Shown piece after piece: positions 23,094 through 44,236 of a stretch of DNA of 44,236 nt; positions within the stretch are counted from its first letter, which is position 1; each line of letters opens with the position of its first letter. Source of the stretch: Silvanigrellaceae bacterium. GTDB taxonomy: Bacteria; Bdellovibrionota_B; Oligoflexia; Silvanigrellales; CANGWC01. Where the stretch lies: positions 1-44,236 of the forward strand of contig CANGWC010000004.1 in the NCBI GenBank assembly GCA_947457515.1, read 5' to 3'. Under the pieces are notes generated by a model that was not told where the DNA came from, ran no database searches, and saw only the letters and a list, made by a program, of their open reading frames with translations. A program made the translations under genes and the position numbers.

Positions 23094-23106
23094 CGGCACT
23101 CGTTCA

Positions 23107-23136: not shown

Positions 23137-23164
23137 AAACATAGAAGACAGTTGGAGGATTTTT

Positions 23165-23824: not shown

Positions 23825-23828
23825 TTAG

Positions 23829-24392: not shown

Positions 24393-24401
24393 GGAAAATA
24401 T

Positions 24402-24914
24402 ATGTCTGGAGTTTCATTAGATGGTAACAGCGAAACCTTATCTCTTAATTTATACCCAATACTAGATATTTTTAGTATTTTAATTTGTTTCTTACTCATG
24501 AATTTCTCCACACAAAGTCAAAGTGTAGAAACAGGTGGAAATTTAGAACTTCCTATTTCAGAAGTTAAAATGTCATTAGATGAAGCAGCGAGTGTTTCTG
24601 TCTCTCAAAAAGATGTAACAATTCAAGGGGGAGTGAGTATTCCTCTGATGGCTAACGGTGATGTGAGTCCTGATCAAGTCGATCAAGGAGCTCTTAAACT
24701 TGCTTATCAAGAATTTAAGAAACTTAAAACAAGTCAAGAAACATTAAAAAATAGAGATAAATCTTTAAGTTTAAATAACCTTGCTTTCCATACTTTAACT
24801 TTAGAAGCAGATAAAAAAGCTAAGTTTCAAATTTTAAAACGGATTATGTTGAGTGGACAACAAGCAGAATTTATTTCTTGGAAACTCGCTGTTGCTCGGG
24901 CTGAAGTGAATTAA
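24402..24914 (+). CDS. TolR/ExbD-type motor subunit 2 (AglQ/AglS-like)
   Basis: 170 residues with a single N-terminal membrane helix (YPILDIFSILICFLLMNFS). D22 is at the proton-site position, as in subunit 1. The cytoplasmic tail is uncharged and Ser-rich rather than basic, and the periplasmic domain differs clearly from subunit 1, so this is a distinct paralogue and not a recent copy. AAGGAA precedes the ATG. It overlaps the next gene by one base (TAATG), which supports coupled translation of motor and outer-membrane parts. Confidence 0.85.
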   Translation: MSGVSLDGNSETLSLNLYPILDIFSILICFLLMNFSTQSQSVETGGNLELPISEVKMSLDEAASVSVSQKDVTIQGGVSIPLMANGDVSPDQVDQGALKLAYQEFKKLKTSQETLKNRDKSLSLNNLAFHTLTLEADKKAKFQILKRIMLSGQQAEFISWKLAVARAEVN

Positions 24915-25603: not shown

Positions 25604-25606
25604 ATT

Positions 25607-27151: not shown

Positions 27152-30100
27152 GTATCTTCAAAAGCACTCTTATTATATGTCTAGCCACATCAACAACACT
27201 CTCTGCTGCGGATATTAATTCTTTAGGAATTGGTCAAGATAGAAAAAAACTCTCTTCAGACCCTCAAAAAATTTCGACTCAAAAAGATCCTAATGCACAA
27301 GAAAACCTTCCGGTTTCTCAAAAAGAAAAAAAAGAAGCCAAACAAGGAAGAATTCATTTAGAAGATATTGAACATCTTAAAACAGAGAAAAAACTGGGTA
27401 AAGCATTAGATCAAGAAATTAATTATATGGAATCTTTTCTTAAGAAAATTCCAGCTAAATCTAAAAATCCACAAAGACCTTTAGTCTTACAAAGACTCAT
27501 CGAAAATTATCATCAAAGAGCATTGATTATTTCTTTTGAAGAATCTCGTTACTATGAATCACAATGGGATAAGTGGAATCAAGGAAAAAGACAAGGAACA
27601 GAACCAAAGATGCCAGCATCCAGGGGAGTTCGTTATCTCGATAAAATAGTTTATTCTGGGAATGAATTTATTAAGACTTATCCTAAGCAAAAAGGCATTG
27701 ATAGGGTCTACTTTCAATTGGCGTATGCTCTCGATCAACAAAATAAAAAACCTTTAGCGATTTCTTATTATCAAGCACTTATCAAAAAGTTTCCCAACAG
27801 TGAATTTGTTCCTGAAGCTTATTTTGCTTTAGGAGAATATGATTTTGATAAAGCTGATTATCGAAAAGCTATTGCTTGGTATCAACAAGTTACTCGTTTT
27901 AATCGATCTCCTATTTACCCATGGGCTATCTATAAAACGGGTTGGGCATATTTTAATATTCAACAATACGAAAAATCTCTTAGGGCTTTCCAACAAGTTG
28001 TAGAGATATCTCAATATAGCCAAGCAGCAACTCAATCAGCTCGACTTCGAATGAAAGAAGAAGCTTTGAGAGATATGGTGAATGTGTGGGCTGAGTTAGG
28101 TCGTATTGATGAAGCAGAACAGTATTTTGCTCGAGTGGGTGGTTCTAAATATTACGGTGATCTTCTTATGAGATTTGCTTCTATTTTAAGGGAACGTGGC
28201 CAATATGATCAAAGCATAGCTCTTCTTAAAAAGTTTAATGTACATAATAAAGATGACAAAGATAAATCTTTAGAAATACAATTTTTGATTATTGATACGG
28301 CATATATGAAAGCAGATAAAGCTGTTTTATGGAGAGAACTCACTTATCTTTTTGATAATTTTGGTCCCGCAACAGAATGGTTTAAAAACTCTAAAGATAA
28401 AGAGTCTAAAGATAAAGAGTCTAAAGATAAAATTAAAAAAGTCGCCCTTTACTATCCTAAAAAGATCCATTCAGAAGCTCAGCTTAAGAAAAGTAAATAT
28501 CAATATGCTCAAGCAGAGATAGGATATAAAATCTATTTAAGGTATTTTGCAGATGCTCCTGAAGCGGCACAAGTCAGATTTCATTTAGGAGAGCTTGAGT
28601 ATACTAACGAAAAATATTTACAGGCTTCTCAGACTTTCTTAGCATTATGCCAATTAGGAACAAAGACACCGTATTTCCAAAAATCCAGTGATTATCTTTT
28701 ATCTTCAGCGTATTTGCCTATTCAAAACGGCATGAAAGTCTTAAGTAAAAAACCTGTTTCTTTAACTAAAGCTCCTGAACCTATTGCAGCTCCTTACCAA
28801 AATTATATGAAGGTCTGTGATCAATACACTCAGTGGTTTCCTAATTCACCTTATGTTTTTGATTGTTTAAGAGACAGTACTGAAATTTATTTAAAACATT
28901 CTCAATTCACAGAAGCTGAAAAAAGACTCAGAATAATTTCTACAAAGTACGTCACTAAACCTCAAGGTAAAAGTGCTGCAGAACTTCTATTACTTTTAAA
29001 TTCTAAAGATAAGAAAAAACTTTACCAAGAGGCATTAGCTCTTTCTAAGATTCCTGAATATAGAACAGGAACTTTGGGTCAAAGAATCCTGGCTATTTTA
29101 GAATCTAAAAAGTTTGAAGATACTCAAGATCTTGAGAAAAATGGTAAATACTTAGAAGCTGCTAAAGGTTTTGAAAGTATTGCGACTACAAATCCTAAAG
29201 GTCCTGATGCTGATAAAGCTTGGTATAATGCTGGACTCAATTATAAGAAAGCAGGAGAAGCTGACAAATCTTTATTCTGTTTAAGTCAACTGATTTCACA
29301 GTATCCTAAAAGTACACTTTTAGGAGAGGGGCTCCTTCAAACTATTCAAATTTATGAAGATTCACTTCAATTTCAAGGTGCAATGCAAGCATCTGCTACT
29401 TTTGTAAATAAATATCCTAAAGATAGCCGTTCTGCTGTACTCACTAAAGGAACATGTTTCTTAGCCAGTGCTGCAAAAGATCCTGTGAATTTAGAAAAAG
29501 CATGTCGTCCGCTTCTTAAGAATAAAGCAACGGCTCCTGCAGCAGCAGATGCAATGGTTTCTACCTATCTTCAAATGGGTAGATATCAAAATTTAGGAAC
29601 ATTTCTTGAACGAGATATGGGTCTATTACCCCCATCAGATCAACTGATCTATTTTAGTAAAACTGCGAAATTAGAAAATAAGTTGGGCTTATCTAGTAAA
29701 GCTAGATATCATGAAAATTCCGTTTTAAGGATATATAAAGATAATCCTAAGAGACTTTCTGCTTTAGCTATATCGGAAGTTGCTCGGATTGAGGTTTCTC
29801 GTTTGAAACCTCAAGTGGATAAAATTCAATCTACTCGTCTGACTGCCATGAGAAAAGATGGATCTGATCTTCAATCAAGTATAGAAAACAAACAAAGACT
29901 GATTAAAGGTTTAGAAAGCAAATGTAATGAAATTATCTCTTTAGGAGATCCTCAATGGACCATTGCCTCTTTAAGTTATCTTGGAAATGCTTATGAGCAA
30001 TTATCTACAGATCTCAAGACAGCTCCTCTTCCTCCTAATACGCCTCCTGCAACAGCAACTCAGCTGAAAGCCAGTTTTGATAAGCTATCTCAAGGTCCCG

Positions 30101-30321
30101 CATCTAAGGCAACAGGGCTTTATGATCAAGGAATGAAGATCATGGAAAAAAACGCTGTCTTCACAGATGTGTCACGTAAACTCAGTGATTCTTATTACCG
30201 CATTAAAAACCAACCCGGTGCTATTGATTGGTCTCCTAATTCTCTTTATGTCTCAACCCCTTGGATAGAGATCCCTGAAACACAAGGTGCTCTTAAATCT
30301 CTTCAAGGAGGAGCACAATGA
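27148..30321 (+). CDS. gltD: Very large periplasmic TPR protein (GltD/AgmU-like)
   Basis: 1057 residues with a signal peptide (FKSTLIICLATSTTLSAAD), a charged linker (about 25-85) and more than ten TPR-like repeats, for example VYFQLAYALDQQNKKPLAIS, AYFALGEYDFDKADYRKAIA, WAIYKTGWAYFNIQQYEKSL and AWYNAGLNYKKAGEADKSLF. Size and repeat content match AgmU/GltD of the gliding apparatus, a periplasmic protein that forms part of the moving complexes. An in-frame 15-base tandem repeat sits at 28390-28431. It overlaps both neighbours by ATGA, so dosage is tightly coupled. Confidence 0.82.
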   Translation: MSIFKSTLIICLATSTTLSAADINSLGIGQDRKKLSSDPQKISTQKDPNAQENLPVSQKEKKEAKQGRIHLEDIEHLKTEKKLGKALDQEINYMESFLKKIPAKSKNPQRPLVLQRLIENYHQRALIISFEESRYYESQWDKWNQGKRQGTEPKMPASRGVRYLDKIVYSGNEFIKTYPKQKGIDRVYFQLAYALDQQNKKPLAISYYQALIKKFPNSEFVPEAYFALGEYDFDKADYRKAIAWYQQVTRFNRSPIYPWAIYKTGWAYFNIQQYEKSLRAFQQVVEISQYSQAATQSARLRMKEEALRDMVNVWAELGRIDEAEQYFARVGGSKYYGDLLMRFASILRERGQYDQSIALLKKFNVHNKDDKDKSLEIQFLIIDTAYMKADKAVLWRELTYLFDNFGPATEWFKNSKDKESKDKESKDKIKKVALYYPKKIHSEAQLKKSKYQYAQAEIGYKIYLRYFADAPEAAQVRFHLGELEYTNEKYLQASQTFLALCQLGTKTPYFQKSSDYLLSSAYLPIQNGMKVLSKKPVSLTKAPEPIAAPYQNYMKVCDQYTQWFPNSPYVFDCLRDSTEIYLKHSQFTEAEKRLRIISTKYVTKPQGKSAAELLLLLNSKDKKKLYQEALALSKIPEYRTGTLGQRILAILESKKFEDTQDLEKNGKYLEAAKGFESIATTNPKGPDADKAWYNAGLNYKKAGEADKSLFCLSQLISQYPKSTLLGEGLLQTIQIYEDSLQFQGAMQASATFVNKYPKDSRSAVLTKGTCFLASAAKDPVNLEKACRPLLKNKATAPAAADAMVSTYLQMGRYQNLGTFLERDMGLLPPSDQLIYFSKTAKLENKLGLSSKARYHENSVLRIYKDNPKRLSALAISEVARIEVSRLKPQVDKIQSTRLTAMRKDGSDLQSSIENKQRLIKGLESKCNEIISLGDPQWTIASLSYLGNAYEQLSTDLKTAPLPPNTPPATATQLKASFDKLSQGPASKATGLYDQGMKIMEKNAVFTDVSRKLSDSYYRIKNQPGAIDWSPNSLYVSTPWIEIPETQGALKSLQGGAQ
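28390..28431 (+). repeat. Short in-frame tandem repeat in the large TPR gene
   Basis: The 15-base unit TCTAAAGATAAAGAG occurs two full times and a third time for 12 bases, encoding SKDKE-SKDKE-SKDK. A change in copy number would add or remove five residues without shifting the frame, so length variation between strains is possible. Confidence 0.85.
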
Positions 30322-31613
30322 ATCCAAGACTCTTATGTATATCTCAGTCTTTCTTTTTAGCGATTATGATCAGTTGTGCGTCTCAGCCTAATGATTCTAA
30401 AAAAGAAGAAAAAGATACAGTTGCTTCTAAAGACTCATCCGATCCTAAAAAGAAACAACTCACAACAGGACCTTCTCGAACGGTCACCACAACGTTACAA
30501 AATGATTTAACGTTTATGTTCTTTTTGCCACCAGATATTGCTGCTAAGACTCAAGATTCTATAGGTCTCAAAAAAGAAACAGAAAATATTCCTCTTTCTA
30601 TTACATATCTTTCCGCTTCAAGATTAAGTCGTCAGCCTCTTGATCAAAAAGTCTTTCAAAAAATAGCCTTAGCCGGAGGATCCCAATCTCCATGGTTTCT
30701 ACTGGAATACGCTTATATTGCTATTCTCAAAAAAGATTATCTTTTAGCAGACTATATCATTGGTAAAGCCAAAAAAAACTCCAAGGATGAAAGTAGCCTA
30801 AATGCATGTTCTCATGCTCTAGGATTAAAACTCATTTCTGAAGGAGAGACTTATTTAGGAATCTTGGAACTTCAAAGAGCTAAATCTTATTATCCATCTT
30901 TACTCACTTTAGGTTTTATGGCGGTACGTTCCGGTGATGGAGCCTCAGGAGAACGTTATTTAAGAACAGCTTTAGGTCAAGGTGAAAATCCTCTTGTCAG
31001 AGTTGGTCTTGCCTCTGCTTTAAGACTACAAGGCAAGAATACAGAAGCTCAAGAAGCTCTCACTCCTGTTTATAAATCAAAAGAAAAAGATAAACGTATT
31101 GTCTGGAATTATGGCCTCATTCTTTCTCAAAATCCTGCATCGGTAGCAGAAGCTAAAACAACTTTAGAAAAATATTACTCTTTATCAGGAAGTACTCCAG
31201 AGTTAGATGGTTCAGTTCAAAAAACTTTAAATCAACTTAAAACACCTCCTCCTAAACCTGTAGATCCTAAAGATTCTGCAACTTCAGGTAAAGAAGTAAC
31301 TCCAGCAACAGGCAAAACAGATAAAGGTACAGGGAAATCTGATGCTACAGATGCAGGAGTCAAAGACACTCCTATAAAAGATCCTAAAAAAACTGATCAA
31401 CCTCCAGCTAAAGCATCAACAGATCCTAAAGCTAATAATCCCGTTAAGCCTGATTCCGGGACAAATCCAGCATCATCAACTCCTGCAAAAGCAGATAATA
31501 AAGAAAGTAACAAAAATCCTACATCGTCCCCTGGGACAAAACCAGATACTCTCAAAACAGAGTCAAAATCTGATAAACCCGCTCCCGTTAAAGAAGCGGA
31601 TAGCGAATCGTGA
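30318..31613 (+). CDS. gltE: TPR lipoprotein of the gliding cluster (GltE/AglT-like)
   Basis: 431 residues. The N-terminus has a hydrophobic signal ending in IMISC, with C20 as the likely lipidated cysteine, followed by a charged linker. The central part has TPR-like units (WFLLEYAYIAILKKDYLLAD; VRVGLASALRLQGKNTEAQE). The last 120 residues are low-complexity, rich in Lys, Pro, Thr and Asp, and probably disordered. This matches AglT/GltE, the TPR lipoprotein of the gliding machine. The start overlaps the previous stop (ATGA), and gltG follows after eight bases with its own GAGG site. Confidence 0.8.
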   Translation: MNPRLLCISQSFFLAIMISCASQPNDSKKEEKDTVASKDSSDPKKKQLTTGPSRTVTTTLQNDLTFMFFLPPDIAAKTQDSIGLKKETENIPLSITYLSASRLSRQPLDQKVFQKIALAGGSQSPWFLLEYAYIAILKKDYLLADYIIGKAKKNSKDESSLNACSHALGLKLISEGETYLGILELQRAKSYYPSLLTLGFMAVRSGDGASGERYLRTALGQGENPLVRVGLASALRLQGKNTEAQEALTPVYKSKEKDKRIVWNYGLILSQNPASVAEAKTTLEKYYSLSGSTPELDGSVQKTLNQLKTPPPKPVDPKDSATSGKEVTPATGKTDKGTGKSDATDAGVKDTPIKDPKKTDQPPAKASTDPKANNPVKPDSGTNPASSTPAKADNKESNKNPTSSPGTKPDTLKTESKSDKPAPVKEADSES

Positions 31614-31621
31614 GGTAAACC

Positions 31622-33577
31622 ATGGCACTGCTTTTACGCTCTAGCCGAGTCACATCGGGGAGCCCTAAAGAAATTGTTCTTGAATCAGGACAAATTATTA
31701 TAGGACAACTCACTTCTAACCAACTTGTGCTTCCTGGTGTGGATATTGATCCTATTCATGCGGTTGTAGAAGTTGATGAACAAACTAAAGAAACCAATAT
31801 CATTGATATGGGTAGTGAGAAGGGTGTCATTTTAAATGGCACCAAAATAGATGTTGTTGCTACCTTAAAAAAAGGCGATGTCATTTATATAGGCTCTATT
31901 AAAATAGATGTTTTAGATGCTTCAGAACAAGAAGTTCCAGGTGCCATTCAAGAACAACAAAAACAAAAAAGAATTGTTCATCAAAGTATTTTTTCACCTC
32001 AGAAATTACAAGCCTCAGGTTCTACCTTAGAAGTGGTAGCTTATTGGGAACAAAGTATTCTGGATGTAAGACATTACGGCAAATCATCAGAAAAGAAACT
32101 TGAAAAAGTGGTTATGATTGGTAATGAGGAAGATGGTCATATCATCGGCGTGGGTCCTCGAGCTGATGTTCGTAATTATAAAATAGGACAGGTTGATTCT
32201 ACGGGAGTTACCTTAAGTCTTAATGAAGACATGAAAGCTAAGATCCGACAAGGCAAAAACTTTCAAAGTGTTCAGGGGCCTACAGTAGTCCCTCTTAATA
32301 GAACTGACGCTGCTCTAGTTAAACATGGTCCTCTTTCTTACTTTTTTTACCATGTTGCTTTACCTAAACTGAATCTTCCCCACTTCCCGGATCTTGATGG
32401 TAAACCCATTATTTTTCTTTATGCGATGATTCTTTATATAGGTGCAGTTGCTTCCATTGTTTCTATGGGACCTGTGAAACCAAAAGAACAAGAATTAGAT
32501 GCATGGTCTACTTACTTAAATATGAGTAAGGTAGAACCTAAACCTATTCCCCAAGTTAAACCTCCCGTTAAGGTAGAACCTCCTAAACTTGTTGAACTTC
32601 CTAAAGCAAAGCCTGTACCACCACCTCCACCTCCTAAACCAAAGCCTACTCCTCCTTCTGTAGATCCAGCTAAGCTCACTCCTAAAGCTGCTCAAAAGCC
32701 TTCAACTCAAGCTATTACCTCTTTGAAACCTCCACAGGTCAAACCTCCTACTCCCGTTGCAAAACTCGGTGGAACAAAAGGTGAGACAAAGTCTACAGAT
32801 AAAGCTTTAGGACCACAGTCTAAAGCTCCTGCAGGAAATAGTGGTGGACCTAAAGGCGGAACTTCTGGAGCATTTGCTTCTGCAAGACAAGGTAACCAAA
32901 AAACCAGTGCTATGGGTGTAGAAAATAAACCTACAGGCCCAGCATCAGGGATCAACTTAGATAAGTTAGCTGCTGGTCTCGGCAAAACAATGGATATTGA
33001 TGCCGTAGGTAAAGTCTCTACCGGCTTAAGCAGTCAAGGTGGAGGACTTTCCGGAGGTTCAGGATCTTCTAAAGATAAGTCCTATGGATTAGGTGGTCTG
33101 GGTAAAGGTAACACAGTCAGCACTGGTGGACCTGGAAGAGCAGTTGCTGGTATTGGTGGCGGAGCCGGAGGCTTAGGTGCCGGAGGATCTGGAGGTCCAG
33201 GTGGAGCTTCCAGTGATGGATCCCGTAAAGCTCTTAAAGCTGAAGCCATTGTTGTCCCTGAAGGTGATCCTGTAGTAGAAGGAAGTCTCACAAGAGAAGA
33301 AATCGAATCTGTGATCAAGGCTCATTTAAGTGAAATTAAAATTTGTTACGAAAGAAGTCTTCAAGGTAACAAAGGCCTTTCTGGTAGAATCATGACTCAA
33401 TTTGTCATTGGATCAGCAGGAAGAGTGACCTCAGCTTCTATTTCTCAATCAGGAATTAATAATTCTGGATTAGAAAGTTGTATTGTATCCGCTGTGAAAC
33501 GTTGGAAATTCCCTAACCCTAGAGGGGGTGGATCTGTGAATGTTTCTTATCCATTCATGTTCTCTCCTTTGAATTAA
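31622..33577 (+). CDS. gltG: FHA-transmembrane-TonB-like protein GltG (PglI)
   Basis: 651 residues. It has an N-terminal FHA domain (about 1-105; IIIGQLTSNQLVLPG, IDPIHAVVEV, KGVILNGTKI), a second cytoplasmic beta-rich domain (about 130-215), a single membrane helix (about 261-283), a Pro/Lys-rich periplasmic stretch, and a Gly/Ser/Ala-rich region (about 380-530). The C-terminal AgmX/PglI TonB-like domain (555-651) opens with LTREEIESVIKAHLSEIKIC and ends SVNVSYPFMFSPLN. This is the layout of GltG, an inner-membrane component thought to reach across the periplasm. The FHA domain implies binding to a phospho-threonine partner. Confidence 0.9.
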   Translation: MALLLRSSRVTSGSPKEIVLESGQIIIGQLTSNQLVLPGVDIDPIHAVVEVDEQTKETNIIDMGSEKGVILNGTKIDVVATLKKGDVIYIGSIKIDVLDASEQEVPGAIQEQQKQKRIVHQSIFSPQKLQASGSTLEVVAYWEQSILDVRHYGKSSEKKLEKVVMIGNEEDGHIIGVGPRADVRNYKIGQVDSTGVTLSLNEDMKAKIRQGKNFQSVQGPTVVPLNRTDAALVKHGPLSYFFYHVALPKLNLPHFPDLDGKPIIFLYAMILYIGAVASIVSMGPVKPKEQELDAWSTYLNMSKVEPKPIPQVKPPVKVEPPKLVELPKAKPVPPPPPPKPKPTPPSVDPAKLTPKAAQKPSTQAITSLKPPQVKPPTPVAKLGGTKGETKSTDKALGPQSKAPAGNSGGPKGGTSGAFASARQGNQKTSAMGVENKPTGPASGINLDKLAAGLGKTMDIDAVGKVSTGLSSQGGGLSGGSGSSKDKSYGLGGLGKGNTVSTGGPGRAVAGIGGGAGGLGAGGSGGPGGASSDGSRKALKAEAIVVPEGDPVVEGSLTREEIESVIKAHLSEIKICYERSLQGNKGLSGRIMTQFVIGSAGRVTSASISQSGINNSGLESCIVSAVKRWKFPNPRGGGSVNVSYPFMFSPLN

Positions 33578-33588
33578 ACTAAATTAAT

Positions 33589-34332
33589 ATGAGGAGGTAT
33601 ATTCATAAACTTTCTTCTTTACACAGTACACCCAACGATCTTTGGAAGTTTTCTACTTTTTCGTTAGTTTTAATTTTAATTATATATTATGATAATGTTA
33701 AAAAACAGGAAGTAGAAACTCGCACAAGAGAAGAAGTAGAATTTGTGATTAAAACTCATACAGGTGAAATTGAAATGTGTTACCAAAAAAAATTTCAAGG
33801 TAACAAAGATATTGAGGGTAAATTCAAGGTTAAATTTATCATTGATTCAACAGGGAGAGCAGCTTCTCTTTCTATTTCAGAATCAGATTTTAATGATTAT
33901 GGATTAGAAAATTGTGTTTCATCTGCTTTGCAAAGTTGGCAATTCCTGAAGCCTAGGGGGAAGAACGGTTCTGCTAATATTTCTTATGTATTTAAATTCA
34001 GTCCCGTAAAAGAATCCATTCTTAAAAAAGAAGAAGGAGTTCTCACAAAACAAGAAATCGAATCTGTGATCAAGGCTCATTTGAGTGAAATTAAAATTTG
34101 TTACGAAAGAAGTCTTCAAGGTAACAAAGGACTTTCTGGTAAGATCGTGACTCAATTTGTCATTGGATCAGATGGAAGAGTAACTTCCGCCTCTATTTCA
34201 GAGTCAGGAGTTCATCTTTCTGAATTAGAAAATTGTGTGATATCTAATTTAAAACTTTGGGAATTTCCTAAACCTAGAGGGAATGGATCTGTAAATGTTT
34301 ATTATCCATTCACGTTCTCTCCTCCAAATTAA
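33589..34332 (+). CDS. Membrane-anchored protein with two AgmX/TonB-like C-terminal domains
   Basis: 247 residues: a short cytoplasmic tail, one membrane helix (FSTFSLVLILIIYY) and two copies of the domain that ends GltG. The first (about 48-140) is diverged (EEVEFVIKTHTGEIEMCYQK). The second (about 150-247) is almost identical to GltG, including at the DNA level (34057-34190 against 33299-33432), so it is a recent duplication. There is no FHA domain and no long linker, so it is a short-reach variant that could compete with GltG for the same partner. The start is odd: AGGAGG forms codons 2-3 of this frame and no ribosome-binding site precedes the ATG. Confidence 0.82.
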   Translation: MRRYIHKLSSLHSTPNDLWKFSTFSLVLILIIYYDNVKKQEVETRTREEVEFVIKTHTGEIEMCYQKKFQGNKDIEGKFKVKFIIDSTGRAASLSISESDFNDYGLENCVSSALQSWQFLKPRGKNGSANISYVFKFSPVKESILKKEEGVLTKQEIESVIKAHLSEIKICYERSLQGNKGLSGKIVTQFVIGSDGRVTSASISESGVHLSELENCVISNLKLWEFPKPRGNGSVNVYYPFTFSPPN

Positions 34333-34333
34333 T

Positions 34334-34927
34334 ATGATCTCAAAAACTTTAATTTTAATGGCTCTTCTCAGTCACTGCGTATTCCTAAGTCCCCATGAAA
34401 AATCTTCCGAGCCTTTTACCAACGAAGGTTTTATTGATGATCTTCCTCTAGAAGAAGAATCACTTCAGCCTCCTAAAGAAACCTATCAAGAACCTCTTAA
34501 AATCAGTCCCCATAAACAAAGACTTTTATGGCCATTACCTAAGGGAGTTGTCACAAGTCACTTCGGAGTGAGAGGTCCTAGAATTCATGGAGGTACAGAT
34601 ATTTCTGCTCCTAAAGGAACTCCAGTTTTTGCATCGTGGGATGGAGAAGTGATTTTCTCTGGTCGTAAAGGATCTTATGGTAAGGCTATGGTTATTAAAC
34701 ATCGCTTTGGATATACCCTTTATGGTCATTTACACCGCACTCTAAAACGTAAAGGTACCAAAGTTAAAGTAGGTGATCTGATCGCTGAAGTGGGTGCAAC
34801 GGGAAGAGCAACAGGACCCCATCTTCATTTTGAAGTCAGAAGTCTTACTGGGAAACCCTATAACCCTTTAGCACTTCTTCCCCAGGGAGATGGATTAGAT
34901 ATTGGGGATAAGATCCCCGGGAGATAG
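34334..34927 (+). CDS. M23-family (LytM) peptidoglycan endopeptidase, secreted
   Basis: 197 residues from ATG 34334; an in-frame upstream start lies inside the previous gene and before the signal peptide. The signal is ISKTLILMALLSHCVFLS. After an acidic linker the LytM domain (about 60-185) has all zinc ligands: H85 and D89 in RIHGGTD, and H163-L-H165 in GPHLHFEVR; GHLHR is also present. It should cut peptide cross-bridges, perhaps opening the wall for the envelope machine encoded upstream. The last 13 codons (QGDGLDIGDKIPGR end) are repeated in near-identical form 488 bases downstream, beyond the XRE gene. Confidence 0.92.
   Translation: MISKTLILMALLSHCVFLSPHEKSSEPFTNEGFIDDLPLEEESLQPPKETYQEPLKISPHKQRLLWPLPKGVVTSHFGVRGPRIHGGTDISAPKGTPVFASWDGEVIFSGRKGSYGKAMVIKHRFGYTLYGHLHRTLKRKGTKVKVGDLIAEVGATGRATGPHLHFEVRSLTGKPYNPLALLPQGDGLDIGDKIPGR
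34882..34920. repeat. Direct repeat, left copy (3' end of the M23 gene)
   Basis: 39 bases beginning CCAGGGAGATGGATTAGATA. The same sequence, with one substitution and one missing base, recurs at 35370-35407. The two copies bracket the XRE gene, like attL/attR of a small integrated segment. The repeat contains a small hairpin, GGGGAT-AAG-ATCCCC. Confidence 0.85.
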
Positions 34928-36904: not shown

Positions 36905-38026
36905 ATGAAAAATTCTTCTCTTATTCTTATGACCCTAGGTTGTATTACCTTAGGATCTATTATTGGGGCATCAGCTACCTTAACTCTTGTCAAAGCTTCT
37001 CCTGTGGAAAGTAAACAGGAGGTCATAGCGGAACCTCAAGGATCTTGTTCTGCTAAAACAGTTTCTGAAGATATCCTCAGCATCAAAAACGTACCTTTAA
37101 AAGAAAATGATCTACCTTTAGATACTCAAGATGCATTGCATCAAGTGCGTAGTCAGTCTTTAGAAAGTGAAGAACAAATCTTAAAAGAACTGGCACTGAG
37201 AATTGTTCTTAGCAAGACATCTGTTAAGCCTTCAACTCCTTTGAGTAACATTCCTTCTTTAAAGTCACTGTTACCTGTTCCTAAAATCAGTTCCGATGAA
37301 CTTCGTGCTTTCTACGAAAAAAACAAAGCATCTCTTCCTCCTAATGTCTCTTTTGATCAAGTCAAAGGTCAGATGGAAAATTACATCGCTCAACAAAAAA
37401 CGATCCAAGTCGCTCAACAAAAAATTCAAGAGTTAGAAGATCAAAAAGCATTTAAAGTAAATCTTAAAACTCCCGTAGCCCCACTCATTGAAATAGATAC
37501 CTCTTCTTATCCTTTTAAAGGACCTAAGGATGCTCCTCATACTCTCATAGGAGTATCAGACTATATGTGTCCGCATTGTCGGAGTGTAAAGCCTCAAATA
37601 GAGGAGCTTTTGAAGAAACATCCTGATAAAATCAAATACGTTCAGATTAATTTTCCATTAGATATTAAAGGACTTAGCGGAATCTTAATTCAAGGTTCTA
37701 TCTGTGCTCAAAAAGAAAGCATGGAAGCTTTCTGGAAATATCATGCTAAAGCTTATGAAATCTCCTTTGAAGCTTTAAAACCAGTCTCTCCTAATCAGCG
37801 TAAAGAATTTATCAATCAAGCGATGACTATTGCTCAAAATGTAGGCTTAGATCTTCCTAAATTTAAAGCTTGTATTGATAAACCAGAAGTTCAAAAACAA
37901 GTTCAAAAAACACTAGAAAGTCTTACAGATATTGGGATTTCTGCAACACCTACATTCTACTTAGATAACCGTAAGCTCATTCCTTCTCAACAAGGCCTTA
38001 TTACTTCCGTTGAGCAAAAACTCTAG
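36905..38026 (+). CDS. DsbA-family disulphide oxidoreductase with SurA-like N-terminal region
   Basis: 373 residues with an N-terminal membrane or signal segment (LMTLGCITLGSIIGASATLTL). The middle (about 75-190) is helical and resembles the chaperone part of SurA/PpiC proteins (ISSDELRAFYEKNKASLPPN, then QVKGQMENYIAQQ). The C-terminal domain (about 200-373) is a DsbA-like thioredoxin fold with active-site C222-P-H-C225 and the cis-Pro loop SATPTFYLDN. It should form or shuffle disulphides in secreted proteins. The next genes encode very cysteine-rich surface proteins, which are plausible clients. The promoter region carries the DnaA-box pair. Confidence 0.9.
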   Translation: MKNSSLILMTLGCITLGSIIGASATLTLVKASPVESKQEVIAEPQGSCSAKTVSEDILSIKNVPLKENDLPLDTQDALHQVRSQSLESEEQILKELALRIVLSKTSVKPSTPLSNIPSLKSLLPVPKISSDELRAFYEKNKASLPPNVSFDQVKGQMENYIAQQKTIQVAQQKIQELEDQKAFKVNLKTPVAPLIEIDTSSYPFKGPKDAPHTLIGVSDYMCPHCRSVKPQIEELLKKHPDKIKYVQINFPLDIKGLSGILIQGSICAQKESMEAFWKYHAKAYEISFEALKPVSPNQRKEFINQAMTIAQNVGLDLPKFKACIDKPEVQKQVQKTLESLTDIGISATPTFYLDNRKLIPSQQGLITSVEQKL

Positions 38027-38115: not shown

Positions 38116-40761
38116 ATGCTTCTGATTCTTTTTGGTCTTATTTTTTGCACAGATAATCCCCCTGCAATCAGGATTCCTGTCTTAAAAAATAAACAGTCTA
38201 TCAGTTCTAACGTTCCTTTTAGACAAACACATACTGATGAAATCGCAATTAATGATAGCAGATGTTTGCAAGGTGGACTTCGTATTAGCACTTGGATTGA
38301 TCAACAAATCAATGATGATATTTACACTGAAGGAGTGGATTCAGACTATGCCGAGAAAGTGATTTGTTTTAAAAATCTTGCCACATCAACACCTATTTTA
38401 ACGAAACCAGGAGATTTTAAAATCATCGCAACAGATATCGCAACAAATGATACCGATTGTCCTCAAGGCGGAAAGAGATATGAGTCTTTTATAGATGTTG
38501 ATGGTAATAGTCTTTATGATTCTACTATAGATACTCAATATAATTATAAGAAAATCTGTACAGGTTTGAGTGGAACAGCCTCATTATCAGGTTCTAATGG
38601 AGGTATTGTAGCCACAGTTTTAACGACGGGAGATGCACAATGTCCTACAGGAGGATTTAAAGTCGATCTCTTCACTGATGTGAATGGAAATGGAACTTAT
38701 GAATCCACCATAGATACTTTCCACAGTGTAAGATACATATGTCATGGATCTCCTAGCGTCACTATTAACTCTACAGTTCCACTCAATGATAGTACGTGCC
38801 TTAATGGAGGCACTCAGATCAATACTTTTACGGATATGAATAATAATGGAACCTATGAATCCACAATAGATACAAACAGTCGTATTTATAAGATCTGTCA
38901 TGGACAAAAAGCTTTAGCTTTAACAACAACTCTCACTTCAGGAGATACAACTTGTGCCGCTGGAGGAACTCAACTGACGACTTGTGTTGATAGTAATGGA
39001 GATAATACCTGTACATCAGGAACAGATCTCAATTACGCCACTCAAAAAATCTGCAATGGACCAGGAGCTGGTTTTATACTCACTTATGAGAACCCTGGAG
39101 CTAATTGTAAAGCAGGAGGATACAGGTCAGAACGATTCCAAGATAATAATAACAATGCTATTTATGATTTAGGAACTGATACAGGATATAGCAGTACTTA
39201 TATTTGTAATGGTTTGAACTGGCTATCCCGGAGCACTTCTTTCACATCGGGTAATGGAACAGCTGCAGATAATACGGCTTGTTTAACAGGAGGTGTGCGT
39301 TTTGAATTTGGATACGATCATGTGAATTCCAGTAATGGAGCTTATTTTGTAGGAACAGACGGAGTCTTAGATACGATAGAGATTGTATCAACAGCTACAG
39401 CGTATTCTTGTAATGGATCCAATGGTGTTGCGGGACCTTTCATCTCTAAATTTCAAAATGATAGTGAAGGAACAAACGCAAGATTCTATTGGGAAATGAT
39501 CTCTGCTGATGGAGCACAACCTAATGTAAAACTTGCTTATGCTTCTACGAAAGCAGCCATTCAAGCATGGAACTGTGAAAGTTCCTTAGCTGGAGTGACT
39601 GTAGTCACAGACTTTTCTAGTTGTACAGATACGACTTATAGAACAGCAGCAAGTGGATCTTTGAATTCTTTTTCTAAGTGTGGATTTGATCTGACATCAG
39701 CACCTTTTAGTACTGCACCATGGGACTATCGTTACTTTAAAGTTTGTGCTCAAAATTCAACTTCTCCCAATACTCAAACTTTGAGTAGTTTTAGGGTGGC
39801 AGGCAATGTTCCCAGTGGAATGGTCATGGTGCATTTAGATGATTGGCCAGTGCATGAGTTTTCTAATACAAGCATCAATCCTTATACTTACGCTATTGAT
39901 AAATGGGAGCCTTACTTAAGTGGTGGAGCTATCACCAATGGGGTACCTGGAGGTTGTACCAATACCAGTTGTGTTTCTGCATCCACAGGAATTCTAGACA
40001 GTTCTTCAGGACAAACCCCCAGTGTCAGTATGGATTGGTATGCCAGTCGTCAGGGTTGTGCAAACAGGATAAACGCAGCTTATACAGGAGTATCAACTTC
40101 CCGCACTATTCATATGCAAACAGAGCTAGAACAATTTGTAGCTAATTATGGAACACCAGATGAATACATATCAGCCTATGGTAACCAAATCACTGGAAAT
40201 ACAGTTAATGTTATAACTTCTGGATACCAAGGGTGTAATATCGATCTTAAACATAATAGTTTAGACAATACATATAATGGGAATGAATTTTACTTAACGG
40301 GAGATATCAGTACTCAAAATTGTATTTCTCGTTATGGAGCTAGAGATCTCATCGGTAATTTCTCTGAATATAATGATGGTTATTATGATAATCTTAATAA
40401 TAATACCACAAGAATAAAATCTATTTACTGGGGTACTTCAGATATAGTTTCCACAAATATTGATGATACTACTTTAGGATATTTATTTCCCATAACAGGA
40501 GGTCTTCAAAGATATCTTATTAGAGATTGGGATTATCAAAATCTTCTTCCTCAAACCTATACATTAGGAGGGATCCCCTCTCTTAAATTCTTTGGAGATG
40601 AATTTGTATTAGACAGTTCCACAGCTACTAAAGTGGCTATCAATGGCTATGGTTCCTGGAGTTATGGATCTTATCTAGGTCGTTTTGAAAAAGATCTTTC
40701 TCGTGATGCGACAACCTCAGATGTTTCTTTAAGTACGCGGTGTGCCATTCTTTCACCTTAA
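38116..40761 (+). CDS. Cys-rich repeat surface protein, array unit 1 (DUF7151-like repeats + FGE/C-type-lectin-like domain)
   Basis: 881 residues. A short hydrophobic start ends in a cysteine (LLILFGLIFC), perhaps lipidated, though the lipobox is poor. Seven repeats of about 50-65 residues follow, each with 'D-x2-C-x2-GG...D-x-(N/D)-x-(N/D)-G-x-Y...D-T-x-Y...(I/V)C-x-G' (for example CPTGGFKVDLFTDVNGNGTY). The acidic loop looks like a calcium site and the cysteine pair like a disulphide. After a fibronectin-like spacer (about 440-565), the C-terminal 310 residues resemble a degenerate formylglycine-generating-enzyme/C-type-lectin fold: GMVMVHLDDWPVHEF, YTYAIDKWEPYLS, MDWYASRQGCANR, ISRYGARDLIGNFSEYNDGY. 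It is likely an adhesin or other binding protein on the cell surface. Confidence 0.8.
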   Translation: MLLILFGLIFCTDNPPAIRIPVLKNKQSISSNVPFRQTHTDEIAINDSRCLQGGLRISTWIDQQINDDIYTEGVDSDYAEKVICFKNLATSTPILTKPGDFKIIATDIATNDTDCPQGGKRYESFIDVDGNSLYDSTIDTQYNYKKICTGLSGTASLSGSNGGIVATVLTTGDAQCPTGGFKVDLFTDVNGNGTYESTIDTFHSVRYICHGSPSVTINSTVPLNDSTCLNGGTQINTFTDMNNNGTYESTIDTNSRIYKICHGQKALALTTTLTSGDTTCAAGGTQLTTCVDSNGDNTCTSGTDLNYATQKICNGPGAGFILTYENPGANCKAGGYRSERFQDNNNNAIYDLGTDTGYSSTYICNGLNWLSRSTSFTSGNGTAADNTACLTGGVRFEFGYDHVNSSNGAYFVGTDGVLDTIEIVSTATAYSCNGSNGVAGPFISKFQNDSEGTNARFYWEMISADGAQPNVKLAYASTKAAIQAWNCESSLAGVTVVTDFSSCTDTTYRTAASGSLNSFSKCGFDLTSAPFSTAPWDYRYFKVCAQNSTSPNTQTLSSFRVAGNVPSGMVMVHLDDWPVHEFSNTSINPYTYAIDKWEPYLSGGAITNGVPGGCTNTSCVSASTGILDSSSGQTPSVSMDWYASRQGCANRINAAYTGVSTSRTIHMQTELEQFVANYGTPDEYISAYGNQITGNTVNVITSGYQGCNIDLKHNSLDNTYNGNEFYLTGDISTQNCISRYGARDLIGNFSEYNDGYYDNLNNNTTRIKSIYWGTSDIVSTNIDDTTLGYLFPITGGLQRYLIRDWDYQNLLPQTYTLGGIPSLKFFGDEFVLDSSTATKVAINGYGSWSYGSYLGRFEKDLSRDATTSDVSLSTRCAILSP

Positions 40762-40866
40762 TCACTAGGAATAAAATTCCCGATATCATTAAAAATCGTC
40801 ATTAAAAATTTAAGGGAAGAATAAAGTAACTATCATAAACTCTTATTAAAATATCGATATAGAGAT
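40762..40866. repeat. Duplicated intergenic segment between array units 1 and 2
   Basis: 105 bases, matched by 105 bases at 43507-43611 with roughly 80% identity by eye. Both hold the small hairpin at the gene end (GGAAT-AAA-ATTCC, 40768-40780), the shared box AATCGTCATTAAAAA, and the block AATATCGATATAGA before the start codon. The promoter therefore duplicated with the gene. Confidence 0.7.
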
Positions 40867-43506
40867 GTGTTATTTATTTTATTTATTCTGAGTTTTTGTA
40901 TAAAGCTTGCTCCAGTAAAGCTTCCAGCGTTAGATGACGCAGAATCTTTAAAAAAAGCCGTTCCATTTAGACAGGTTCATACTGAAGAAATCCCTTTAAG
41001 TGATAGCAGATGTTTACAAGGTGGATTTCTCACAACCACATGGATAGATCAAAAAATCAATGATGATGTTTATACAGAAGGAATAGACACTGGATATACA
41101 GAAACAGTCATTTGTTTTAAAAATCTAGCGACAACAACAGCCACTATCACCAAACCTGGAGATCTCAAGATCGTGGCTACAGATCTTCCCATCAATGATC
41201 CCGACTGCCCTCAAGGAGGAAAGAAATACGAATCATTTGTCGATGTGGATGGAGACAGTATTTATAAGTCTACAGTGGATACAAATTACAATTCTAAGAA
41301 GATTTGTAATGGGCTCAATGGAACAGCATCCTTATCGGGAGCTAATGCTGTGATTGTGACAAGTGTTTTAGCTAGCGGAAGCACTCAATGTCCTGCGGGA
41401 GGGAACAAATCAGAATCTTTTACAGATATGAATGGAAATGGAACGTATGAGTCAGCAGTGGATACTTTCTATAGTGTTCGTTATACATGTAATGGATCTA
41501 ATAGTGTAACCTTAACATCCACCATAGCTTCCGGAGATAGCACTTGTACCAGTGGAGGGACTCAAGTCACCACATTTACAGATATCAATAATAACGGAAC
41601 CTATGAAGCGACCATAGACAAAAACAGTAACACTTATAAAGTCTGTAACGGACAGAAAGCTCTCGTACTTTCCACAACTCTAGCTTCCGGAGACACCACT
41701 TGCCCTGCAGGTGGGACTCAACTCACAACGTGTATTGATAGCAATGGAGATTCTAATTGCACATCGGGCCCAGATCTCAATTATGCCGTAAAGAAGATCT
41801 GTAATGGACCAGGAGCAGGATTCCTCGTTACTACAGAAAATGCAGGATCTAATTGTAGAGCCGGAGGTTACAGATTAGATCGGTTTCAAGATAATAATAG
41901 TAACGCAGTCTATGATGTGGGAACGGATACAGGTTACACAAGCACCTATATTTGTAATGGACTCAATTGGCTCTCTAAAAGTACATCCTTTACCTCTGGC
42001 AATGGGACAGCAGGAGATAATACAGCGTGTCCTGTAGGGGGAGTCAGATTTGAATTTGGATACGATCATGTGAATTCCAGTAATGGGGCTTATTTTGTAG
42101 GGACAGATGGAGTCTTAGATACGACAGAAGTCGTCGCCACAGCTACAGCTTATTCTTGTAATGGCTCCAATGGAGAAACAGCCGGGCCTTTAATCTCTAA
42201 ATTTCAAAATGACAGTGAAGGAACCAAAGCAAGGTTTTATTGGGAGATTATCAGTGCAGATGGAGCAGCACCTACGATTAAACTGGCGTACAGTTCCACA
42301 AAAGCAGGAATTCAAGCATGGAACTGTGAAAGCTCTTTAGCAGGAGTCACAGTGGTGACAGACTTTGCCAGTTGTACAGATACCACTTACAGAACAGCAG
42401 CTAGTGGAGCATTTAACTCAGACTCTAAGTGTGGCTTTGATCTCACTGCAGCGCCTTTTAGTACGGCAGCATGGGATTATCGATACTTTAAACTCTGTGT
42501 CCAAAACTCAACCAGTCCTTACAGCCAGAATCTGAGTACCTTTAGAGTTGCAGGGAATGTTCCCAATGGAATGGTCATGGTGCATTTAGATGATTGGCCA
42601 GTGCATGAGTTTGCTAATACAACAGTCGTTCCTTATACGTATGCGATTGATAAATATGAACCTTATATGAGTAGTGGCTCCATTACTAACGGAACACCAG
42701 GAACATGCACAGCTACAAATTGTATTTCTAGCAGTACAGCAACTTTAAGCAGTGCAACAACACAAACTCCTGTAACAAGCATTGATTGGTATGCCAGTCG
42801 TAAAGGATGTGCCAATAGAACGGCTGCAGGGTACACAGCAGCAGGTACACCAAGATCGATGCATCTTCAAACAGAAATGGAAGAGTTTGTAGCGAACTAT
42901 GGAACTCCAGATACAATAATTTCCAATGTAGGTGGTAATTTAAGTTATGCCTCAGTTCCCTATGCAGGTTATATGTCTTGTAATGTGGATCTTTTACATA
43001 ATTATCAAGATGTAACTTATAATGCCAATGAGTTTTTTCAAACAGGGAATGTGGCTACAAAATATTGTATTTCAAGATACGGAGCAAGAGATCTCATTGG
43101 TAACTATGGAGAATTTCTTGATGGATATTATGAAAATTTAATCAATAATACCACAAGGCAAAAATCAGTTTATTGGGGTACTTCAGACAGAGTGACGACT
43201 GTGATTAGTGATGCTAATTTGGGTTATGCTTTCCCTGTAGCAACAACTACGTTTTATGTTGCAGATTGGGATTATCAGAATCTTCTTCCCAAACCTTCCT
43301 ATGCTTTTACTTTAGGTCCAAATCAAAAGTATTTTAGTGATTATTTTTCACTGAATTTTACAGTTGCGACAAGAGTGGCAACAACCATGCAATATGGGTT
43401 AACTGGTTTTGGTTCTTTATCTGGTAGATTTTATAAGGATCTTTATTATAACGCAACAGATAATTATAATTATGGAACACCTCGATGTGCCATTGTTTCT
43501 CCTTAA
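40867..43506 (+). CDS. Cys-rich repeat surface protein, array unit 2
   Basis: 879 residues, a paralogue of unit 1 along its whole length and closest in repeats 6-7, the spacer and the beginning of the C-terminal domain. The start is GTG 40867 (LFILFILSFC...). The frame is open 14 codons further upstream and there encodes a basic stretch (KLLLKYRYRD) that would suit a signal peptide, but no standard start codon is present in it. Seven Cys/Asp-Gly repeats, then the FGE/C-type-lectin-like domain with MVMVHLDDWPVHEF, YTYAIDKYEPYMS, SIDWYASRKGCANR and ISRYGARDLIGNYGEFLDGY. The two copies differ most in the last 200 residues, as expected for a variable binding face. Confidence 0.8.
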   Translation: MLFILFILSFCIKLAPVKLPALDDAESLKKAVPFRQVHTEEIPLSDSRCLQGGFLTTTWIDQKINDDVYTEGIDTGYTETVICFKNLATTTATITKPGDLKIVATDLPINDPDCPQGGKKYESFVDVDGDSIYKSTVDTNYNSKKICNGLNGTASLSGANAVIVTSVLASGSTQCPAGGNKSESFTDMNGNGTYESAVDTFYSVRYTCNGSNSVTLTSTIASGDSTCTSGGTQVTTFTDINNNGTYEATIDKNSNTYKVCNGQKALVLSTTLASGDTTCPAGGTQLTTCIDSNGDSNCTSGPDLNYAVKKICNGPGAGFLVTTENAGSNCRAGGYRLDRFQDNNSNAVYDVGTDTGYTSTYICNGLNWLSKSTSFTSGNGTAGDNTACPVGGVRFEFGYDHVNSSNGAYFVGTDGVLDTTEVVATATAYSCNGSNGETAGPLISKFQNDSEGTKARFYWEIISADGAAPTIKLAYSSTKAGIQAWNCESSLAGVTVVTDFASCTDTTYRTAASGAFNSDSKCGFDLTAAPFSTAAWDYRYFKLCVQNSTSPYSQNLSTFRVAGNVPNGMVMVHLDDWPVHEFANTTVVPYTYAIDKYEPYMSSGSITNGTPGTCTATNCISSSTATLSSATTQTPVTSIDWYASRKGCANRTAAGYTAAGTPRSMHLQTEMEEFVANYGTPDTIISNVGGNLSYASVPYAGYMSCNVDLLHNYQDVTYNANEFFQTGNVATKYCISRYGARDLIGNYGEFLDGYYENLINNTTRQKSVYWGTSDRVTTVISDANLGYAFPVATTTFYVADWDYQNLLPKPSYAFTLGPNQKYFSDYFSLNFTVATRVATTMQYGLTGFGSLSGRFYKDLYYNATDNYNYGTPRCAIVSP

Positions 43507-43611
43507 TAACTGGGAATAAACTTCCTCATAAAAGATAAAATCGTCATTAAAAAGTTTCACTCAGAATAAAGTAACCATTATAAACTCTTACTAAAATATC
43601 GATATAGAAAT
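43507..43611. repeat. Duplicated intergenic segment between array units 2 and 3
   Basis: Counterpart of 40762-40866 and of identical length. The block AAACTCTTACTAAAATATCG is nearly unchanged. The end-of-gene hairpin is weaker (GGAA-N5-TTCC). Confidence 0.7.
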
Positions 43612-44187
43612 GTGTTACTTATTTTATTTATTCTGAGTTTTTGTATAAAGCCTGCTGCAGTAAGACTTCCTGCTATAGGTGATTCAAATATTGGATTTAA
43701 ACAGGTACATGTTGAAGAAATCCCTTTAAGTGATATCAGATGTTTACAAGGTGGATTTCTCACCACCACATGGATAGACCAAAAAATTAAAGATGATGTG
43801 TATCAAGAAGGAGTAGATACAGACTATAAAGAAACAGTAATTTGTTTTAAAAATCTAGCGACAACAACAGCCACCATCACCAAACCCGGAGATCTCAAGA
43901 TTGTGGCTACAGATCTTCCCATCAATGATCCCGACTGCCCTCAAGGAGGAAAGAAATACGAATCATTTGTCGATGTGGATGGAGACAGTATTTATAAATC
44001 CACAGTGGATACAAATTACAATTCTAAAAAGATCTGTAATGGACTGAATGGAACAGCATCCTTATCTGGAGCTAATGCAGGAGTGGTAGCCACAGCACTC
44101 AATACTGGAGATACCCAATGTCCTACAGGTGGATTTAAGCAGGGCCACCTCATGAAAATTTTTTTTGACTTAAAGCAAATATTGTGA
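43612..44187 (+). pseudogene. Array unit 3, truncated and mosaic
   Basis: It begins like unit 2 (LLILFILSFCIKPAAVRLP, GTG start) and keeps the first two repeats and the beginning of a third. Up to about 44070 it is nearly identical to unit 2. From about 44075 to 44138 it follows unit 1 instead (VVATALNTGDTQCPTGGFK against IVATVLTTGDAQCPTGGFK). After A44138 the similarity stops abruptly and the frame runs 16 unrelated codons to TGA. The product would lack five repeats and the whole C-terminal domain, so it is a broken copy, or a recombination donor. Confidence 0.75.
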
Positions 44188-44236
44188 TCGCAAATTCTAT
44201 TGTTTTTTAGTTACTTAAAATCTAAAATCAAATAGA
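44139..44236. mobile_element. Possible end of an insertion element (unidentified)
   Basis: The sequence starts GCAGGGCCACCTCATGAAAA and is unrelated to the array that it interrupts. It is AT-rich and without an open frame in the 98 bases visible, which would suit the non-coding margin of an insertion sequence. The partner end lies outside the window, so this rests on the abrupt junction alone. Confidence 0.3.

Follow-up and report, generated by a model that had tools for sequence, protein, structure and literature searches.

A dispersed family of cysteine-rich proteins with a predicted FGE/C-type-lectin-like head and variable C-terminal segments in a Silvanigrellaceae bacterium

Tandem genes at the contig end and their relatives

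The window is the whole stretch of DNA analysed here, 44,236 bases ending where the contig itself ends, and its right end carries two complete genes and the beginning of a third, all on the forward strand. Unit 1 (38116..40761) encodes a protein of 881 residues consisting of a short leader with a terminal cysteine, seven DUF7151 repeats, a spacer domain of about 116 residues and a C-terminal domain predicted to adopt an FGE/C-type-lectin-like (FGE/CLec) fold. Unit 2 (40867..43506, 879 aa) has the same architecture and is 69% identical to unit 1. Unit 3 (43612..44142) is confined to the first 177 codons and is interrupted by the terminal part of a repeat, probably a mobile element (44143..44236), that runs to the contig terminus and occurs with 94 of 94 bases identical at three other contigs (C27:15383, C33:11570 and C36:11365). 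The open frame of unit 3 extends to 191 aa (43612-44187); since homology to the family ends at 44142 and the repeat takes over, the remainder of this frame is not family sequence. At the DNA level the units repeat in register, with start-to-start spacings of 2751 and 2745 bp, and long blocks are 70-84% identical, which greatly exceeds chance. A preliminary description had proposed three units with a period of about 2.75 kb, of which the period and two full tandem genes stand while the third is a fragment, and it had assigned shared 105-bp promoters to all of them. The latter proposal fails: the 105-bp spacers before unit 2 (40762..40866) and unit 3 (43507..43611) resemble only each other, and since neither the 89 bp preceding unit 1 nor the sequence upstream of five other copies is like them, the family has no shared promoter. 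The neighbouring gene (36905..38026, forward strand) encodes a DsbA/thioredoxin-like exported oxidoreductase; in a named Silvanigrellales genome, too, a related gene adjoins the CLec homologue.

The repeat regions of unit 1 (38263..39438, residues 50-441) and unit 2 (41011..42192) match Pfam DUF7151 (PF23657) with E-values of 4.5e-22 and 1.2e-21 (78.2 and 76.8 bits, cut-off 27.2), and the fragment of unit 3 scores 17.8 bits, under the cut-off. The repeats bear the motifs C-x-x-GG and D-x-N-x-N-G, the second of which is a plausible calcium loop. Seven repeats had been counted in each full unit, and this count extends to the whole family: all six intact full-length copies in the genome hold exactly seven C-x-x-G-G motifs and 27 cysteines each. 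The function of DUF7151 proteins is unknown, and a literature search found no publication on the domain. The conserved spacer domain that follows (39442..39789 in unit 1, residues 443-558; 42193..42540 in unit 2) is shared with further genomes of the order (G008, G010 and G011). Other genomes of the order differ in having DUF7151-like repeats without a CLec head, some of them with collagen-like stretches (G012). A hydrophobic leader with an aligned terminal cysteine is present in all eight copies that reach this region; the residue preceding the cysteine is F, F, F, A, S, Y, G or T, which makes a weak lipobox, and the start codons are uncertain. Judged from these leaders, the proteins are probably lipid-anchored at the surface.

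Further units had been expected beyond the right edge. Because the window stops at the contig end, they were sought by a genome-wide protein search of the assembly, which is 74% complete, and the family was found as 14 match rows at 13 places, six of them holding intact full-length copies. It is thus a family of dispersed paralogues with about a dozen scattered copies. Searches of PHROGs with the family gave no match and those of NCBIfam only sub-threshold chance rows; likewise, a profile scan of genome contigs with an alignment of ten paralogues (A1) and scans of viral contigs with profiles A2, A5 and A4 found no match.

Homology and predicted fold of the head

The C-terminal domain occupies 39790..40758 in unit 1 (residues 559-881) and 42541..43503 in unit 2. 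In Pfam searches at E up to 1 the window proteins return no row for the FGE-sulfatase family (PF03781, gathering cut-off 23.3 bits) and none for Lectin_C, and the best paralogue, on contig C31, reaches 17.9-18.6 bits against PF03781, below the cut-off. The connection is made through relatives. Alignment A1 matches A5, an alignment of seven proteins of genomes G053 and G054, with a probability of 98.5% (hhalign, E 1.5e-15, 274 columns), and all six of these seven that were scanned match PF03781 (E 8e-7 to 6e-19); a named Silvanigrellales MAG holds a homologue that scores exactly 23.3 bits, which is the cut-off. A PDB search with A1 alone gave no credible match. With A4 it retrieved SUMF2 (E 0.0026), but two antibody chains rank among the FGE entries, so these E-values are weak evidence when taken alone.

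AlphaFold was of no use with the two window sequences alone (pLDDT 28.7). With an alignment containing 43 viral CLec/FGE proteins (set A7) it produced a moderate model of the head, with a mean pLDDT of 58.8 and insert 2 below 50, which leans to the CLec/FGE fold because these viral proteins were in the alignment. The best PDB match of the model is TaqVP of Thermus aquaticus (5vf4), a variable protein of a diversity-generating retroelement (DGR); the two align structurally over 258 residues that are 16% identical (Foldseek E 9.7e-5; Z 15.0, rmsd 4.1 Å). Next come FGE enzymes and Mtd with Z 8-9 (FGE structures Z 8.3-9.2); PorK/PorN complexes are also among the matches (Z 9.9), and the similarity to lectin domains is one of fold only (Z 6.5-7.8). 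The preliminary description had suggested a C-terminal domain of FGE/C-type-lectin-like fold, and no other fold emerged from the prediction. Profile-profile homology and the AlphaFold model together support this fold for the last 323 residues, and by profile and predicted fold the head is homologous to the FGE-sulfatase domain. A literature search found no publications on FGE-sulfatase lipoprotein paralogues.

Distribution and origin of the variation

Among the six intact copies (15 pairs), to which the dN/dS table is confined, dN is 0.08-0.21 in repeats 2-7 and 0.12 in the spacer domain, and it peaks at 0.63 in residues 681-722 and 0.59 in residues 797-881, with a conserved stretch between these two segments. 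The leader and first repeat (residues 1-96) are variable as well. The earlier picture of well-conserved repeats and spacer with divergence over the last 200 residues therefore holds for repeats 2-7 and the spacer, but has to be redrawn as two separate segments in the head and a variable N-terminus; variability is in any case unevenly spread along the protein. Conservation of the repeats through homogenisation by gene conversion is rejected, because dS is about level and near saturation throughout (1.0-1.5 in repeats 2-7 and 1.3-1.6 in the head). Segment 1 (40156..40281 in unit 1) falls between alpha2 and beta2, where the CLec fold has its insert 2, and carries indels. The core of segment 2 (40654..40749 in unit 1, residues 847-878; 43399..43494 in unit 2) is the equivalent of the DGR variable region.

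Variability was placed by alignment to TaqVP, a prophage gene product with a template and an accessory gene, whose variable region is at the very C-terminus and whose variable residues were taken from its published description (PMC6328139). In the last 32 residues of the family the mean entropy is 0.72 at the eight TaqVP-variable columns versus 0.38 at the other 24 (permutation p 0.003), and the TaqVP register gives the highest contrast among all 32 register shifts; these and the codon analyses comprise 11 rows, the fragment on C42 being left out. The entropy profile of 12 family rows, this fragment included, also follows that of 44 of the 50 viral CLec proteins used as controls (rho 0.64, permutation p 2e-4), and the agreement is closest at zero shift. 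Together with the concentration of dN, this agrees with the proposal that the family is diversifying a putative binding face.

An unlikely alternative, and the one that survives best, is relaxed constraint: the FGE/CLec fold of the head would have a structural or scaffolding role, comparable to that in PorK-like lipoproteins, and the two segments would be loops that drift freely and form no binding repertoire. The structural matches to PorK/PorN and the indels in segment 1 are in its favour, as is a pN/pS of 0.98 at the TaqVP-variable columns, about 1 and not above it, a value that, with synonymous sites near saturation, allows both relaxed constraint and selection. Free drift would however not be expected to spare the framework positions G, G, R, F, K, R and C between the variable columns, nor does it sit well with the 27 cysteines and intact frame kept in six full copies or with variation that tracks positions which are solvent-exposed in TaqVP (PMC6328139).

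Recombination between copies is indicated by the PHI test (p 0.002-0.012 in four of four sets). Such a signal would also be produced by antigenic variation from silent cassettes, in which expressed genes would receive variable ends by gene conversion from other copies, among them those on C50 and C42. These two retain just their 3' part, roughly the final 90-100 codons, and exact runs of up to 95 bp are common to otherwise different copies. This alternative appears distinctly improbable: PHI gives a stronger signal in the N-terminal half than in the C-terminal domain, the variable ends of the copies have no exact run of at least 45 bp in common, and the 3' fragments may be assembly breaks since all five copies without the 5' part sit 116-145 bp from a contig end.

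The copies might instead be DGR targets whose reverse transcriptase and template are hidden in the 26% of the genome missing from the assembly or were lately lost, comparable to the remote and orphan targets of Treponema denticola. There, TvpA and its paralogues are predicted lipoproteins with the FGE/CLec fold, a C-terminal variable segment and several dispersed genes per genome (PMC4891356), and the family described here is comparable in its predicted fold, variable end, dispersal and lipoprotein-like leaders. In T. denticola the copies differ from the template at adenines in a process driven by the reverse transcriptase. In the window family, by contrast, neither enzyme nor template was found: PF00078 has no match in the assembly, the 74% completeness of which leaves room for an unseen reverse transcriptase, and for neither window gene does the contig hold a template copy, other contigs having been searched by protein only. 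The NNY codon pattern is missing too. A third-base pyrimidine (NNY) is slightly commoner in the TaqVP columns (59/85 vs 148/264, p 0.03), but falls far short of the 343/352 in the viral controls (p 2e-13), and the variable columns contain the codons TGG, CAG, ATG, AAA and CCG, which are unreachable from AAY. On these codons and the synonymous divergence a current DGR target is rejected, and a DGR that is hidden or recently lost is very doubtful.

The viral controls derive from 80 loci listed of 120 stretches, which yielded 76 closed motif-bearing frames of which 50 were kept; 43 of these form alignment A7 (L108, L120, L133, L135, L141, L143 and one of two L076 were left out). A second copy was found for 29 of the 50 and none for the other 21. 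At least 80% of the mismatches fall at A in 22 cases, three are mixed (L114, L129 and L133) and four are not A-biased (L076 twice, L143 and L145). A retroelement beside the G054 homologue was considered and rejected: the RT-like frame (L055:6013-6357) is a fragment of 115 codons, and was not counted because its sequence resembles that of a group II intron RT. The only second copy of the end of the G054 gene in this locus is 51 bp long, and three of its 11 mismatches fall at A.

An active FGE-type or EgtB-type enzyme family, to which the predicted fold and the alignment of the GARDLIGN motif of the head with the FGE motif GLYDMxGNVWEW might point, is rejected. The FGE catalytic pair (human C336/C341) lies in the C-terminal segment, but the 45 residues that precede the final RC contain no cysteine in any of the ten copies complete in frame, or in the C50 fragment as an eleventh; moreover, the active-site segment is usually invariant between enzyme paralogues. 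The heads share with the FGE-sulfatase family (SUMF1/SUMF2, PvdO and EgtB) a homologous domain, the GN-motif and the C-terminal RC/GFRC end, and differ from it in scoring under the Pfam cut-off, in the absence of catalytic cysteines and in their hypervariable end.

A putative DGR-free surface repertoire

The reading that is preferred, with a probability of about 0.7, is a repertoire of ligand-binding surface lipoproteins that arose by duplication, divergence and recombination of paralogues, with no DGR acting now or recently. The family would be exported and lipid-anchored at the cell surface, where a cysteine-rich stalk of seven DUF7151 repeats would carry the conserved spacer domain and the FGE/CLec head. 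Having lost the FGE catalytic cysteines, the head may serve as a platform for ligand binding with a preserved framework; its two variable elements, the alpha2-beta2 insert and the counterpart of the DGR variable region, are different in each copy. These elements would be exposed and selected for diversity. The repertoire would have arisen as genes duplicated, diverged by point changes and recombined with one another, and its partner might be a host cell, prey or neighbouring bacteria. A more specific version has perhaps an even chance of being correct, namely that this is a repertoire of CLec surface receptors in which duplication and recombination, acting on a dozen scattered copies, diversify the very face that DGRs hypermutate.

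Like DGR variable proteins in general, the family combines a predicted CLec fold with a variable segment at the C-terminus, and the window heads vary at the same columns as TaqVP. To our knowledge, TvpA lacks a DUF7151 stalk, TaqVP has neither a repeat stalk nor the spacer domain, and CLec variable proteins are known almost solely through DGRs. Intragenomic duplication of CLec modules has been described for paralogues of cyanobacterial variable proteins, which are associated with DGRs and with kinase or caspase-like domains and not with a surface stalk (PMC7517822).

If this more specific version is true, a route exists to the same diversity of the binding face that is free of DGRs, and G053, with its large FGE-headed proteins, may offer a parallel case in another family of the class. 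Fixed paralogues whose variation falls on identical positions of this face raise the question of whether it is the fold and not the retroelement that favours diversity there, and whether DGRs were recruited onto existing repertoires or lost from them. Described members of the order Silvanigrellales include a parasite of Daphnia and isolates from human samples, and the family would represent a probable recognition system in this almost unstudied lineage.

Paralogue family and architecture

The window is a whole contig, one of 68 in a 1.17 Mb assembly that is 74% complete, and ends on the right with two complete genes (unit 1, 38116-40761; unit 2, 40867-43506) whose proteins are 69% identical. 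The preliminary description had counted three tandem units, but the third (43612-44142) holds only the first 177 codons. It is cut by a repeat at 44143-44236, so that the open frame to 44187 enters foreign sequence. Contigs C27, C33 and C36 each hold a copy of this repeat that shares its left boundary and matches it in 94 of 94 bases; the stretch probably belongs to the terminus of a mobile element that has inserted at several sites, once within unit 3. A 105-bp upstream stretch, ascribed to all three units, is common to units 2 and 3 but absent before unit 1 and five other copies. As the contig stops at the right edge, the search for further units was made across the whole genome at protein level and gives 14 rows at 13 places. 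Six copies are intact and full-length (a pair on C4, the window, another pair on C7, and single copies on C31 and C54), three have a complete head, the C-terminal domain, with the 5' side cut (C59, the start of C33, C15), and C50 and C42 carry 3' fragments, the unit 3 fragment being counted besides. Each of the five copies that lack the 5' part is 116-145 bp away from the end of its contig, and so may be an assembly break instead of a pseudogene. One C33 copy (locus L007), next to a gene that we take to be MreB-like, has a frame break mid-gene at about 10508-10515 with both halves well conserved, and is either a pseudogene or an assembly error. A full-length relative was found in none of 55 other genomes searched, and of 57 other genomes in the class, 6 match a profile of ten paralogue heads, all of them distantly. 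Genome G011, of the same order, has a homologue whose protein is the same as in Silvanigrellales bacterium M112S1SP1A16QC.

The proteins start with a short, hydrophobic leader terminated by a Cys that is aligned in all eight copies reaching that far. The preceding residue (F, F, F, A, S, Y, G and T across the copies) makes a weak lipobox, and the leader sequence suggests a lipoprotein. As first described, seven Cys-rich repeats follow, identified by Pfam as DUF7151; every intact copy has seven C-x-x-GG repeats and 27 Cys in total. A domain of about 116 residues (443-558 of unit 1), with relatives in G008, G010 and G011, precedes the head, which comprises the last 323 residues. Two loci of G012 in the same order (L015, L029) intersperse DUF7151-like repeats with collagen-like G-x-x and have no C-type lectin (CLec) head in the part read. 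Directly upstream of unit 1 lies a DsbA/thioredoxin-like gene (36905-38026), a relative of which (23% identity, E 2e-22) adjoins a CLec-head homologue in a named Silvanigrellales MAG (L061, 7477-8670), the two not being mutual closest relatives within the order; an exported neighbour of this kind is fitting for a Cys-rich product. Elsewhere in the window, 20993-34927 encodes an ExbB/TolQ-type channel, TPR proteins, an FHA-TonB protein, a second TonB_C protein and an overlapping M23 peptidase, presumably resembling gliding/Agl-Glt type machinery as in myxobacteria and their relatives.

Fold and variable positions of the head

A Pfam scan finds no match to FGE-sulfatase (PF03781) in the window proteins, and even the highest-scoring paralogue falls short of the cut-off. 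The head is tied to PF03781 because the ten paralogue heads match seven heads from G053 and G054 (profile-profile probability 98.5, E 1.5e-15, 274 columns), of whose proteins the six scanned all match PF03781 (E 8e-7 to 6e-19), and because the G011 homologue hits the cut-off exactly. In the alignments GARDLIGN is the counterpart of the GLYDMxGNVWEW-type motif of FGE, and the closing RCAI falls on the end of FGE. The ten complete-head copies and the C50 fragment have no Cys among the 45 residues that precede the closing RC, the stretch in which FGE has its catalytic pair, and the sequence speaks against an active FGE enzyme. The large proteins of G053 and G054 (L021, L022, L026, L032, L034, L036, L037) and of G057, with open frames up to about 2300 codons, form another family of the class, in which an FGE/CLec head closes the protein and the C-terminus is hypervariable in the same pattern (14 matches come from G053); a 2152-codon frame in the own genome (C15:2743-5028) resembles them, with weak matches to the head profile and FGE-sulfatase.

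The proposed FGE/C-type lectin-like fold is upheld by this homology and by an AlphaFold model of moderate quality. The two window sequences alone give no usable model (pLDDT 28.7), and a 46-sequence alignment (the two, one related locus and 43 viral proteins) gives mean pLDDT 58.8, pTM 0.66; block means reach 67-85 in the final 23 residues and drop below 50 in loop 123-185 of the model. The best PDB match is TaqVP, the variable protein of a Thermus aquaticus diversity-generating retroelement (DGR) (Foldseek E 9.7e-5; VIA-align Z 15.0, rmsd 4.1 Å, 258 residues), followed by PorKN, Mtd, FGE, PvdO, TvpA and EgtB at Z 8-10. Because the alignment holds many CLec proteins, model and homology claim do not count as independent evidence, and what is informative is the gap between TaqVP and the remaining matches.

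Pairwise comparison of the six intact copies (15 pairs) gives dN values of 0.08-0.21 for repeats 2-7 and the spacer domain and of 0.17-0.20 for the head core. The reported conservation of repeats and spacer is retained to this extent, but divergence, placed originally over the last 200 residues, peaks at 681-722 (0.63) and 797-881 (0.59), with further variation in the leader (0.87) and in repeat 1 (0.43). Segment 681-722 sits in the model between the second helix and the GN-motif strand, the place of CLec insert 2, which interacts with the variable region in characterised DGR proteins except TaqVP (PMC6328139). The C-terminal residues can be aligned to TaqVP without a gap, and the family end matches the DGR variable region in position. 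With the TaqVP variable residues taken from that paper, mean normalised entropy across 11 paralogues is 0.72 at the eight TaqVP-variable columns and 0.38 at the remaining 24 (permutation test, p 0.003), the true register giving the highest value of all 32 shifts, and the entropy profile follows that of 44 viral CLec proteins (rho 0.64, p 2e-4, best at zero shift). Variability is not even along the protein. The main rival to a role in binding is that relaxed constraint explains the variable segments; pN/pS is 0.98 at the eight columns and 0.54 in the rest of the C-terminal segment, 0.79 at the tip of segment 681-722 and 0.25 in the head core. Recent homogenisation of the repeats is ruled out, since dS is near saturation throughout and low dN there reflects constraint.

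Origin of the variation

A variable codon of a DGR protein has C or T in third position. This holds for 59 of 85 variable codons in the family versus 343 of 352 in viral controls (p 2e-13), and TGG, CAG, ATG and AAA, unreachable from AAY, occur among them. No RVT_1 match is found in the own genome (assembly 74% complete) and no template-like copy on the contig for either window gene. By contrast, 22 of the 50 viral controls possess a second copy in which A positions account for at least 80% of the mismatches. The PHI test indicates recombination between copies in four of four sets (p 0.002 to 0.012), with the N-terminal half giving the strongest signal. Together these results make the variation look like duplication, divergence and recombination, while a slight excess of third-base pyrimidines at TaqVP columns (59/85 versus 148/264 at other columns, p 0.03) would be compatible with a very old DGR relic. 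The large proteins, at 46/56 for the same columns, fall between the family and viral DGR proteins. Locus L058 (G053:C60; 4437-4570, 4596-5984, 6064-7764) looks like a DGR, having an RT gene and, in inverted orientation, a 134-bp sequence that is 86% identical to the end of the neighbouring gene, whose C-terminus carries a different variable region-like sequence.

Comparison with known systems and proposed role

CLec paralogue repertoires are already known. PMC4891356 describes Treponema denticola CLec lipoproteins with two to seven DGR targets per isolate, orphan targets in RT-less isolates still being changed at template adenines, and PMC7517822 describes cyanobacterial CLec paralogues. The window family shares such a repertoire but differs in having no DGR signature while varying the same positions on a DUF7151 stalk. 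For this combination, the open-licence literature yielded no paper on DUF7151 or on FGE-sulfatase lipoprotein paralogues, and the further titles concern DGRs, conflict systems and unrelated lipoproteins or antigens. We infer location, binding and partner as follows: the paralogues would be exported through Sec and disulphide-bonded, for which the upstream DsbA-like gene may be cited, a lipid anchor and the repeat stalk would keep the head off the membrane, and the head would bind partners via its two variable elements, each paralogue possibly with its own specificity.
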